Assembly: GCA_003702525.1 (NCBI GenBank)
Contig: REGJ01000006.1
Coordinates: 1 to 49,745 of the forward strand
DNA: 49,745 bases
Direction: 5' to 3'
Source of the DNA: Candidatus Nitrosopumilus sp.
Lineage (GTDB): Archaea; Thermoproteota; Nitrososphaeria; Nitrososphaerales; Nitrosopumilaceae
The translations under genes were made by a program, and so were the position numbers. Shown piece after piece: positions 5,434 to 9,560 of the stretch; the first letter of the stretch is position 1, and every line of letters begins with the position of its first letter. Under the pieces are notes generated by a model. The model searched no databases, was not told the origin of the DNA, and saw nothing but the letters and a program-made list of their open reading frames with translations.

Positions 5434-7749
5434 TTATTCTAAATTATGCATTGACTGCAAATCTTTCTTAAACTCTGCCAACTCTGCAGGAACTTCAATT
5501 GAAATGGAATCCTTTAATGACAATTCCTTTGCCTTTTTCTCATTCCACACTTTAGAGTTAAACTGCACAACTTGTTCAGTTAATTTGGAGTGATTCTCTA
5601 CACTTTCAACTTCAGCTTGTCTTTCTGTGTGAATACTGGTCTCTGAATACAACGTCTGCCACAAATGCTCTGTGATAAATGGTGTAATTGGTGCCAATAA
5701 TTTCAAAACTGTTGATAGCACTTTGTGTAGAGTGTAGATGGCTGCATCTCTTTCTTCTTCAGAGAATCCTTCTCCGTAGGCTCGTTTTTTGACCATTTCA
5801 ATATAGTGGGCTGCAAACAAATTCCAAGTAAATTCTCTAATTGCAATTGCTGGAACAAAGAAATTGTATTGATCATATCCTTTTTTACAATCTTGAATTA
5901 AATTATTTAGTTCTGATAAAATCCATTTATCCACCATAGTTGGTTTTCCTTCTTTGATTACAGTAAAACTAGACAGGAATCTTGAAACATTCCATAACTT
6001 GCTCAAAAATTTCTTGGTTGACTCTATCTTCTGTTCATTGCATCTAAAGTCTTGACCGTGATTAATCTCACTTGCACTCCAAAATCGGAATGTGTCAGCT
6101 CCAAATTTCTCAATTACTGGGAGTGGGTCAATTGCATTTCCCTTACTCTTACTCATCTTCATTCCTTTCTCATCTAAACCATAACCCATAACCCAAGCTT
6201 CAGTCCATGGTTTCTTTCCAGTTAGCATGTCACATCGCAAAAGAGTATAGTACAACCATGTCCTTACGATATCTTTTGCTTGAGGTCTGATTGATGTTGG
6301 ATATGTTTTCTCAAAGAATTCTGAATCCTTGTTATACTTTGTAACAAAGAGTGGTGAAACACTGGAATCCATCCATGTATCAAATGTTCTATCTTCTCCA
6401 GTAAACTCACCATTACCACACTTTACACATTTGTCAATTGGACATTTCTCCTTCCAAGGTTGATAGTATTTTCCTGGTTCAGGGACGTGGGGTTCATTAC
6501 ATTTAGAACAATACCAGATAGGAATCTCTGTTCCATAGTATCTTCTTCTTGAGATTGGCCAGTCAATAGATATGGAATCAAGCCAGTTCATCAGAATCTG
6601 CTTGTGCATATTTGGGTAAAACGTGATTTCTGAGCCTAGTTTTCGCATTTTTTCAATGGAATCTTTTTGTTTGAGATAGTATTCCTCCATTGGAATTATC
6701 TCAATTGGAATCTTACTTCGCTCAGAAGTTGGTGTACGGTGATTAATCTCCTCAATTTTCTCAACAAATCCTTTTTCTTCCAAATCAGTAATTATTTTCT
6801 CTCTTGCTTGTTTTGGTTTTAGTCCTGCATATTCTCCTGCAGCTTCTGTCATTCTTCCATCCAAACCAATTGCAACAATCTCTTCTAATCCCATCTCTCG
6901 AAACAATGCAACGTCGTTCTGGTCACCATAGCTACAAACCATTACAGCACCAGATCCAAAGTCTTGCTGAGCTGAATGATGAGTTTTAATTTCAACTTCC
7001 GCCCCTGTTATTGGTACTACCACCTTGCTTCCAACAAATGGAGCATATCTCTCATCTTCCGGATTTACTATAATGGTACGACATGCACAAAGTAATTCTG
7101 GTCTTGTACTTGCAATGATAATTTCTTTATCAGTATCTTTAATCTGAAATTTCATGTGAACTAGTTTTGTCTGAATGTCTTGGTAAACAATTTCAGCATC
7201 AGCAATTGTAGTGCCAGATACCCAATCATAGTTGTTAGGTCTAGTAGCTAGAACAATTTTTCCCTCCTTCCATAAAGTGATAAATGTTGATTGTGTTAGT
7301 GCACGATACTCTTGTGAATCTGTTCTGTAGTGGTTCTTCAAGTCGCCACTGAGTCCAAGGTTTGTCATGATCAATACCATCTCTTCTTCCAAGTCATCTA
7401 GTGCTTCTCTGCACAAATTCAAAAATTCGTCTCTATCAGTTTCTCTCATTCTGATGTTGTGTTTTTTCTCAGTGTAGAACTCTACAGGCAAACCATTTCT
7501 GTCAATTCCAATTGGAAAGTAGACGTTCTTGCCATTCATGCGTGCAGTTCTTGCAATCATGTCTATCTGGGAGTAATGAGCAGCAGCGCCAATGTGCCAA
7601 GGTCTGCCTGATGGGTATGGCGGAGGCGTGTCTATGGTGTAATTATCATCAGTTGGAGTGAATTTGTAAAGGTCTGAATCCTGCCATTTCTTTAAGACCT
7701 GTGCCTCTAACTCTGGATTCCATGCCTTTTCAGTAATTTTTGGGTCCAT
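5434..7749 (-). CDS. valS: Valyl-tRNA synthetase
   Basis: Charges tRNA-Val with valine. It is a class I synthetase of 771 aa from the chosen ATG at 7749 (MDPKITEKAWNPELE). The HIGH-type motif is HIGA at 52-55 after TPPPYPSGRPW; KMSKS is at 531-535. The editing domain carries STRPELL (about 214-220). A zinc-knob pair, CSKC (414-417) and CVKC (441-444), precedes the second catalytic half. The anticodon-binding helical domain and a short C-terminal tail follow. An in-frame TTG upstream would add 24 residues lying inside the upstream gene, so I rejected it. It starts 1 bp after the queD-like stop and is clearly cotranscribed with that gene. Confidence 0.95.
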   Translation of the reverse strand: MDPKITEKAWNPELEAQVLKKWQDSDLYKFTPTDDNYTIDTPPPYPSGRPWHIGAAAHYSQIDMIARTARMNGKNVYFPIGIDRNGLPVEFYTEKKHNIRMRETDRDEFLNLCREALDDLEEEMVLIMTNLGLSGDLKNHYRTDSQEYRALTQSTFITLWKEGKIVLATRPNNYDWVSGTTIADAEIVYQDIQTKLVHMKFQIKDTDKEIIIASTRPELLCACRTIIVNPEDERYAPFVGSKVVVPITGAEVEIKTHHSAQQDFGSGAVMVCSYGDQNDVALFREMGLEEIVAIGLDGRMTEAAGEYAGLKPKQAREKIITDLEEKGFVEKIEEINHRTPTSERSKIPIEIIPMEEYYLKQKDSIEKMRKLGSEITFYPNMHKQILMNWLDSISIDWPISRRRYYGTEIPIWYCSKCNEPHVPEPGKYYQPWKEKCPIDKCVKCGNGEFTGEDRTFDTWMDSSVSPLFVTKYNKDSEFFEKTYPTSIRPQAKDIVRTWLYYTLLRCDMLTGKKPWTEAWVMGYGLDEKGMKMSKSKGNAIDPLPVIEKFGADTFRFWSASEINHGQDFRCNEQKIESTKKFLSKLWNVSRFLSSFTVIKEGKPTMVDKWILSELNNLIQDCKKGYDQYNFFVPAIAIREFTWNLFAAHYIEMVKKRAYGEGFSEEERDAAIYTLHKVLSTVLKLLAPITPFITEHLWQTLYSETSIHTERQAEVESVENHSKLTEQVVQFNSKVWNEKKAKELSLKDSISIEVPAELAEFKKDLQSMHNLE

Positions 7750-7750
7750 T

Positions 7751-8575
7751 TTACAAATTGTCTTTTGAGATGTTTGAAATAATGTGAGAGCCCTTGTTGT
7801 AACCCTCATAGATGTAAACACCTACTGCTTCAACATTTGAAGGCATTTTAGGTGCTAGTAATTTGATTAGTTCACTTGATAAATTCTCTACAGTTGCCTC
7901 TCCCTCTAAAAGATAGGTTGTATGCTTTGGAACTTGCAACTCAAACATTCCTTGAGGACCCTCAAATGATATGACATAGTGAGAGTCGTCTTCTGATTTT
8001 AGATATTTTCTATTAATGAAAAACTTGTGATCAAATGCAGTCAACACTTCTTTGATAATCTTTTTTGCAACACCAAAATCCAACAACAAATTATCTTTCA
8101 TCTGTCCGACCAATTCCACCATTACAGATGATGTATGTCCGTGTAGAATGGAGCATTTCTCAACTAGTGGAAGTATGTGTGCATAATCAAATGCAAATGA
8201 TGCATCATCTAAAAAGATAGAACCAGTCTGTGGTGTCTTGTCATAAAATACAATATCTTGCAACTCTTTTAGTTGTGCAGAATATTTTCCGTGTCCGATT
8301 GCCATTACTTTTTGATCAGGAAAATCATCCTTGATCTGTTTGTACTTTGCAATGTCGTCTTCATTATCAATAACTTCAATCAGTCCCTTTGCAGTTTTAA
8401 AATCAACTGTAACTTCGGTTCCATTTTTCAATGTAACCTTGTGATTGTATTCATATTCGTCTTCCAAAAAGTCTAGCATCTGTGCTACTGTCAACTCTGT
8501 TCGAGTCTTCATTAGATTTCCTTTCTTGTCGATATACTTGAAATCTGAATCCAATACTGCGGGACTTGTTGCCAT
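7751..8575 (-). CDS. 6-pyruvoyl-tetrahydropterin synthase/QueD-family protein with extra N-terminal domain
   Basis: The C-terminal half (about 125-274) matches the 6-pyruvoyl/6-carboxy-tetrahydropterin synthase fold. The zinc ligands are H133, H145 and H147 (FDYAH and LHGH), the catalytic Cys is C141 in EKCSILHGH, and D182-H183 lies in FDHKFF. TVENLSSELI then precedes the last strand. These enzymes act on dihydroneopterin triphosphate in pterin or 7-deazaguanine pathways. Residues 1-124 are an additional acidic alpha/beta domain I do not recognise; QueD alone is about 120 aa. A TATA box (8601-8610) lies about 30 nt before the ATG. Pterin versus archaeosine role cannot be decided here. Confidence 0.85.
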   Translation of the reverse strand: MATSPAVLDSDFKYIDKKGNLMKTRTELTVAQMLDFLEDEYEYNHKVTLKNGTEVTVDFKTAKGLIEVIDNEDDIAKYKQIKDDFPDQKVMAIGHGKYSAQLKELQDIVFYDKTPQTGSIFLDDASFAFDYAHILPLVEKCSILHGHTSSVMVELVGQMKDNLLLDFGVAKKIIKEVLTAFDHKFFINRKYLKSEDDSHYVISFEGPQGMFELQVPKHTTYLLEGEATVENLSSELIKLLAPKMPSNVEAVGVYIYEGYNKGSHIISNISKDNL

Positions 8576-8732: not shown

Positions 8733-9560
8733 TTGGTTAGTCAGGGGATTCTAATTGGAATTGCAGTTGGAGTATTTTTTGCAGGAATTGGAATAGGCTA
8801 TGCTGCTTTGCAACCTACAACACCAATGATGAGCACTCAACATATGCAACAAATGTCCAATGATCCTCAACAGATGAACCAGTGGATGAATACTATGATT
8901 AATGATCCGCAAGCAATGCAACAGATGCATGACATGATGATGTCAAACCCTCAACACATGAATCAGATGATGGGACCAATGATGGATACCATGATGAATG
9001 ATCCAGAATTGCAGCAACAAATGCTCAATCACATGATGAATAATCAAGCAATGATGGACTATATGATGAATCATCAAGACATGATGAATATGATGGTGGA
9101 TGGAAATATGATGATGGGAGGCCACATGATGGGTTCTGGAATGATGAGTTCTCAACCATCCCAAACAATTCCTACAGATTCAGATCCTCAAACTAGAGTT
9201 TTTCAAATCAGCATGGAAGAAGTAGAGTTCTATGCTGAAGTTAAAAATGAAGGTGGGGAAGAAGCAATTGCATTTGTTGAATTACATACATGGGAGCCAA
9301 ACACCATAATTGTTAATCAAGGAGATACTGTAGTTCTTGAAATTACTAATCCAAGAAAACATGCACACACATTATCAATTCCAGCATTTAATGTAAATTC
9401 AGAAATGCTTGAACCAAGAATAGGAGAAGACACTGTAACTTTTGTTGCTGATACTCCAGGGGTTTTCACATTCTATTGTGGGTTGCCATACAATCCAGAC
9501 AAACTGTACTGTGATCCTGATCATAATATGATGACGGGCACTTTGATTGTGTTAGAATAA
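8733..9560 (+). CDS. Membrane-anchored Met-rich cupredoxin with CuA-like copper motif
   Basis: 275 aa from a TTG start. Residues 5-25 are a signal or anchor helix. Residues 31-140 are extremely rich in Met, Gln, Asn and His, with a degenerate repeat of about 14 aa (DPQxMxQM...MMN). Residues 155-275 are a cupredoxin domain. KHAHTLSIPAFNV (209-221) resembles the subunit II segment of haem-copper oxidase, and the ligand loop has C249, C260, H264 and M267. The spacing is C-x10-C-x3-H-x2-M, whereas CuA has C-x3-C-x3-H-x2-M. The protein probably binds copper outside the membrane. Electron transfer versus copper storage or delivery is open. Confidence 0.85.
   Translation: MVSQGILIGIAVGVFFAGIGIGYAALQPTTPMMSTQHMQQMSNDPQQMNQWMNTMINDPQAMQQMHDMMMSNPQHMNQMMGPMMDTMMNDPELQQQMLNHMMNNQAMMDYMMNHQDMMNMMVDGNMMMGGHMMGSGMMSSQPSQTIPTDSDPQTRVFQISMEEVEFYAEVKNEGGEEAIAFVELHTWEPNTIIVNQGDTVVLEITNPRKHAHTLSIPAFNVNSEMLEPRIGEDTVTFVADTPGVFTFYCGLPYNPDKLYCDPDHNMMTGTLIVLE

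Follow-up and report, generated by a model that had tools for sequence, protein, structure and literature searches.

The window, i.e., the whole stretch of 49,745 nucleotides analysed here, encodes a cupredoxin in which the two cysteines aligning with those of CuA are separated by ten instead of three residues, and we consider it about an even chance (roughly 0.5) that this domain holds a CuA-type electron-transfer site in a C-x10-C version. In the translated ORF, the ligand pattern reads H212, followed by C249-x10-C260-x3-H264-x2-M267; the ORF, its frame, the residue numbering and the widened spacing next to a C-x3-H-x2-M part were all given correctly by the first-pass annotation of this DNA, which had proposed either a new CuA variant or a type 1 site with an extra Cys. 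The host is an ammonia-oxidising archaeon (AOA) of the Nitrosopumilaceae, with an archaeal AmoA on another contig and kin named Nitrosopumilus. The gene comprises the following features:

8733–9560, + strand: whole gene, 275 amino acids, TTG start, stop codon at 9558–9560
8745–8813, + strand: N-terminal hydrophobic segment, residues 5–27, read from the sequence as a probable uncleaved membrane anchor
8823–9158, + strand: Met-rich arm, residues 31–142 (composition and AlphaFold)
9189–9557, + strand: cupredoxin domain, residues 153–275 (Pfam Cupredoxin_1, AlphaFold and fold matches)
9285–9287, + strand: H185 of H-x-W, possibly an extra ligand or electron-entry residue (20/20 in the family alignment)
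9366–9368, + strand: H212, aligning with the first His ligand of CuA
9477–9479, + strand: C249, aligning with the first CuA Cys
9480–9509, + strand: 10-residue loop between C249 and C260 (3 in canonical CuA, from alignments)
9510–9512, + strand: C260, aligning with the second CuA Cys
9522–9524, + strand: H264, aligning with the second His ligand of CuA, directly preceded by the invariant D263
9531–9533, + strand: M267, aligning with the axial Met of CuA

The TTG start is shared with two close orthologues (L002 and L086), and the hydrophobic N-terminal segment is kept in all 12 arm-bearing orthologues. Across five pairs with the window, dN/dS amounts to 0.06–0.16 in the cupredoxin part and 0.07–0.22 in the arm; given these values and the conservation of the protein, we reject the views that the ORF is fortuitous or the gene disrupted. 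In one relative, a frameshift parts the arm from the cupredoxin strands (L005:4136-4839 / L018), representing either an assembly error or decay.

The family alignment of the domain (A3) comprises 20 rows, i.e., the window, 13 other Nitrosopumilaceae and six sequences from outside this family. Here, H185, H212, C249, C260, D263 and H264 are each present in 20/20 rows, and a 48-residue fragment from the end of a contig (L076), which is present in alignment A2 and omitted from A3, agrees with it. Both the C-x10-C spacing and the x3 spacing from C260 to H264 are exact throughout, including relatives down to 36% identity, and the loop between the cysteines takes 14 different sequences at a single length of ten residues. 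Since both cysteines are invariant while the intervening loop varies, and dN/dS is low, the motif is more than chance; loss of C249 among orthologues, which the first-pass annotation had named as fatal to its proposal, did not occur. The axial position is more variable (Met in 16, Ile in three and Gln in one of the 20 rows). Of the His segment HAHTLSIP, to which that annotation had also pointed, the second His (H212) is conserved and the first is not, some relatives showing e.g., GNYHSFSIP at this place.

Among CuA-like loops collected with one regular expression over all fetched loci, a sample selected for resemblance to the query and hence no census, 25 distinct ORFs had three residues between the cysteines and 18 had ten, and no intermediate spacing occurred. 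Six further ORFs (L060, L062, L063, L064 and two more) are instead expanded between the second Cys and the His, reading C-x3-C-x9-H-x2-M, and a single ORF for a CuA-like cupredoxin (L097) shows C-x3-C-x10-H-x2-M.

CuA is the textbook case of a fixed C-x3-C loop. The CoxB of the same genome keeps this normal site (C-REY-C-GLI-H-YN-M), and aligning the window protein with four C-x3-C CuA sequences of the same archaeal group, its own CoxB included, introduces a single 7-residue insertion between the cysteines and leaves the ligand loop otherwise undisturbed; the PDB sequence search shows this 7-residue gap for Thermus CuA as well. Like CuA of COX2 (2cua) and NosZ, the window domain combines a cupredoxin fold with five side-chain ligands of the same identity and order, including C-x3-H-x2-M from the second Cys onward. 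It differs by the ten instead of three residues between the cysteines, by H-x36-C, a spacing that ranges from 35 to 43 across the family and is 34 in the canonical motif H-x34-C-x3-C-x3-H-x2-M, as stated in PMC6189053, and by not being part of an oxidase. Pfam COX2 (PF00116) found no match in the window protein at E up to 1, whereas the own CoxB does match; Pfam Cupredoxin_1 matched with 28.3 bits against a cut-off of 27. Of the features defining CuA, the fold as well as two His, two Cys and the axial Met in canonical order were found, but the C-x3-C spacing was C-x10-C in 20/20, and the domain is consequently not filed as a member of the CuA family, although it most likely functions like one.

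The cupredoxin domain is predicted with high confidence (AlphaFold mean pLDDT 95.7, pTM 0.83), and when the full-length model was used for a fold search, the 50 matches listed were all cupredoxin-fold proteins. In Foldseek, nitrosocyanin took the top rank (E 7e-10; 122 columns at rmsd 5.6), and the CuA domains of NosZ superposed at rmsd 1.3–1.7. Likewise, VIA-align, in whose ranking small Z differences carry little weight, gave Z 14.3 at rmsd 5.0 for nitrosocyanin, 14.1 for the N-domain of nitrite reductase, about 13 at rmsd 1.8 for the NosZ CuA domain and 12.0 for Thermus CuA (2cua; 93 residues, rmsd 1.8, 30% identity). The N-terminal hairpin probably accounts for the high rmsd in the case of nitrosocyanin. 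By sequence, the best PDB matches were nitrite reductase and nitrosocyanin, both ranked above CuA.

Nitrosocyanin (1iby) is a mononuclear red copper protein with a Glu/His/His/Cys ligand set. It resembles the window domain down to the long N-terminal beta-hairpin, but a His region of the window protein aligns with its Glu ligand and the window protein has a second Cys. As this ligand set is not matched and NCBIfam TIGR03096 scores 27 bits against a cut-off of 142.85, membership of the nitrosocyanin family was rejected. PmoD/AmoD of methane- and ammonia-oxidising bacteria are likewise membrane-anchored cupredoxins with an unusual CuA site in hosts of related physiology; according to PMC6189053, however, PmoD has no canonical motif, builds its site between the subunits of a homodimer, is anchored C-terminally and is absent from archaeal ammonia oxidisers. 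The window protein, having the canonical ligand set and an N-terminal hydrophobic segment, was rejected as a member of this group.

Outside the ammonia oxidisers, the genomic context points to a redox function. Five of the six non-AOA carriers (G265, G353, G264, G601 and G532), each from a different family, have the cupredoxin gene at the head of an operon whose next genes encode an Fe-S protein holding several 4Fe-4S motifs and NrfD, and most of its ORFs touch or overlap. In G601, the one genome scanned with the respective library, the Fe-S protein reached 188.7 bits with DsrO, where the cut-off is 200, and the membrane protein 104.7 bits with DsrP, where it is 350; both are related to DsrO/DsrP without being members. 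The next gene in three of the five operons (G264, G601 and G532) codes for another cupredoxin, which shows C-x3-C-x2-H and has an Ig-like part; its counterpart in G265 (L072) lost the loop His, and in G353 (L073) the contig ends inside NrfD, before any second cupredoxin. The ORFs for these Ig-like proteins, each bearing the second CuA-like cupredoxin of its Fe-S/NrfD operon, are located as follows:

L108:11457-12497
L109:5065-6087
L074:8483-9679
L072:3622-4743

The sixth non-AOA carrier (G254) has no adjoining NrfD, a plastocyanin-like gene beside the domain and canonical CuA genes a few kb off. The combination of an Fe-S protein with an NrfD-family membrane protein is shared with quinone-reactive NrfCD/DsrOP-type modules and menaquinone:cytochrome c oxidoreductases, as described in PMC7327174, which concerns other complexes than a copper-linked archaeal NrfD operon. 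Unlike in those modules, copper cupredoxins replace the heme proteins, and no CxxCH (heme-c) motif occurs in the 23 operon ORFs scanned, a set that leaves aside the L074 cupredoxin ORF and includes one ORF of 67 codons which may be no gene. Literature searches, from which most subscription journals were missing so that absence carries little weight, returned nothing on archaeal NrfD/DsrP with cupredoxins, on thaumarchaeal methionine-rich copper proteins or on the CuA ligand loop in relation to mononuclear type 1 cupredoxins.

The C-x10-C domain is sparsely distributed: it was found in 15 of 250 Nitrosopumilaceae genomes and three of 22 genera (E up to 1e-15), and G112 has a copy cut short. An order-wide draw of 400 genomes yielded 59 genomes with a match at 1e-8, 19 of them strong (E below 1e-20). 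Four strong carriers lie outside the Nitrosopumilaceae and show C-x10-C-x3-H on reading by hand, with an axial Ile in two; within the 40 weaker genomes, the subset of matches inspected had other loops. A phylum sample of 398 genomes added two further strong carriers (G601 and G532), and a scan of viral contigs gave 25 pattern matches, none of them a relative. In the tree, non-AOA and AOA rows are set apart (support 100/99), with weak inner support and some long branches. COX1 is present in 10/10 carriers tested, including all six non-AOA carriers, and AmoA was detected in none of these six (completeness 77–95%). The first-pass annotation had suggested copper loading of ammonia-oxidising enzymes, a proposal that lost its footing because so few Nitrosopumilaceae carry the gene and the outside carriers appear to do so without AmoA; we consequently reject it as the main role.

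NrfD was absent from all 14 AOA carriers tested. The neighbouring genes in AOA differ among genomes, without any stable partner. Two genomes have a cation-efflux gene nearby (L081 and L087), one an ArsR-type regulator (L079), and at L085 a gene for a Cys-rich DUF326 protein (6121-6438) lies directly upstream and one for a DM13 protein (7559-8086) downstream, DUF326 proteins being Csp-like copper storage proteins. The window and its nearest kin have other neighbours and none of these metal-related genes.

The window's Met-rich arm contains 37 Met in 128 residues (29%), besides 19 Gln, 13 Asn and six His, in line with the first-pass description, and the arms of the 12 arm-bearing orthologues reach 24–34% Met over 120–163 residues. 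Csp copper-storage proteins are Cys-rich four-helix bundles, and the arm was not counted among them, as 11 of the 12 orthologue arms have no Cys and the remaining one has two. Neither the non-AOA relatives nor one Nitrosopumilus relative (L025) have the arm, which is hence not part of the core device. Arm-less relatives instead feature, by eye, collagen-like Gly-Pro repeats (L072, L073 and L109), a coiled-coil-like stretch (L108) or another short part (L025), and related arms precede other domains, e.g., plastocyanin (L026) or small helical-looking parts (L007, L024, L030 and L038), or stand alone. As other spacers replace it and related arms head other domains, the arm is a swappable tether, helical according to the model: AlphaFold predicts seven short helices over residues 35–123, several broken at Asn/Asp-Pro, with pLDDT mostly 50–68, and leaves the last Met/Gly stretch unordered (pLDDT under 50). 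Met-rich copper proteins are known to bind copper, and by analogy it is plausible from its Met content that the arm, which the first-pass annotation had proposed as a copper store, does so as well.

The arm could alternatively be an STI1-like helical tether that holds partner proteins, a reading compatible with any view of the copper site. The short helices broken at Asn/Asp-Pro would fit this, as would the enrichment of MM (15 versus 10.4 in shuffles) and depletion of M-x-M (3 versus 10.4) in the window arm, expected for Met on one helix face, and a sister arm protein reaches 16.6 bits against Pfam XPC-binding, which is below the cut-off of 26.4. Nevertheless, we regard this option as rather improbable, as the window protein has no Pfam STI1 match, a PDB sequence search at E up to 10 found no arm homologue of known structure, the helices are of moderate confidence and the Met content exceeds what a binding groove needs.

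For the site itself, the identity and order of the ligands, the preserved C-x3-H spacing and the redox context of the operon lead us to favour the CuA-type reading. We also count in its favour the invariant His and Cys ligands, the overlay on the CuA domains of 2cua and NosZ, the second cupredoxins in three of the five operons and the presence of COX1 in the carriers tested. We count against it the missing COX2 match, nitrosocyanin as best fold by E-value, the PDB sequence matches above CuA, the loss of the axial Met in 4/20 rows, the His loss in L072, the lack of an adjoining NrfD in G254 and the contig of L073 ending inside NrfD. A mononuclear copper carrier, in which C249, H212 and H264 (with M267) would form a type 1 or nitrosocyanin-like site and C260 would be structural or secondary, retains some probability given the kinship to nitrosocyanin and nitrite reductase, whose domains rank top by sequence and Foldseek; C249 also stands at the type 1 Cys position, and the axial residue varies as it does in type 1 sites. 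A further cupredoxin, the purple Nmar_1307, reportedly has a mononuclear open type 1 site. However, C260 is invariant and always placed x3 before the His as in CuA, a spacing that a type 1 site would not need and that favours a CuA-like site, while C249 and H264 are separated by x14, well beyond the shorter Cys-to-His loops of type 1 cupredoxins; together with the low nitrosocyanin family score, this makes a mononuclear site the less likely reading. Still less likely, in our view, is a thiol/disulfide or copper-chaperone device, in which a redox-active C249/C260 pair, His/Met ligands and the arm would pass Cu(I) to cuproproteins, similar to Sco/PCuAC. The Met content of the arms, the metal-related neighbours in some AOA and a DsbD-like gene with a small CxxC ORF near the arm-less L025 homologue speak for such a role. 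Against it, neighbours vary in AOA and the window has none of this kind, the gene outside AOA mostly resides in a redox and not a copper-transport operon, and the joint invariance of both His and both Cys goes beyond what a chaperone needs.

Under the CuA-type reading, the gene product would be a membrane-anchored, probably outward-facing copper protein, in which C249 and C260 would bridge two coppers. Each copper would have a single His as its cap, and the axial ligand, which varies between Met, Gln and Ile, would be weak. Such a site would shuttle electrons one at a time between a redox complex in the membrane and other acceptors. In non-AOA archaea, the domain would mediate electron transfer between the quinone pool and copper carriers, taking the place of the usual heme protein. 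In AOA, where the partner complex is missing, it would stand alone on its Met-rich tether, which may also bind Cu(I), and probably exchange electrons with plastocyanin-like proteins. Tentatively, and with considerable doubt, C-x10-C could even represent a new class of dinuclear copper site. In uncultured archaea, this site would provide a heme-free NrfD-type quinol:copper oxidoreductase with its copper outlet, and some marine ammonia oxidisers would have adopted it as a free-standing carrier on a copper-buffering Met-rich tether. If true, a natural invariant C-x10-C would test how far the Cu2S2 core depends on the C-x3-C loop. Moreover, the operon context suggests an electron route that links quinones with copper proteins and needs no heme c, bearing on the wiring of copper-based archaeal respiration. 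The domain is small, confidently folded in prediction and amenable to bench tests.

Apart from the gene in the window, further arrangements of its parts were observed. The Met-rich membrane arm occurs as a shuffled module with varied C-terminal parts in Nitrosopumilaceae (L007, L024, L026, L030, L035 and L038), and the full-length query matches 114 of 250 genomes (E up to 1e-5), a count to which low-complexity matches contribute. A Met/Gly-rich arm is joined to a plastocyanin-type domain at L074:11688-12320, in a genome without detected AmoA. Finally, at L075:8064-10804, an arm-less C-x10-C homologue adjoins a C-x3-C CuA-like domain with axial Gln that is fused to an ethylbenzene-dehydrogenase-like part, and the same locus also holds a DsbD-like gene.
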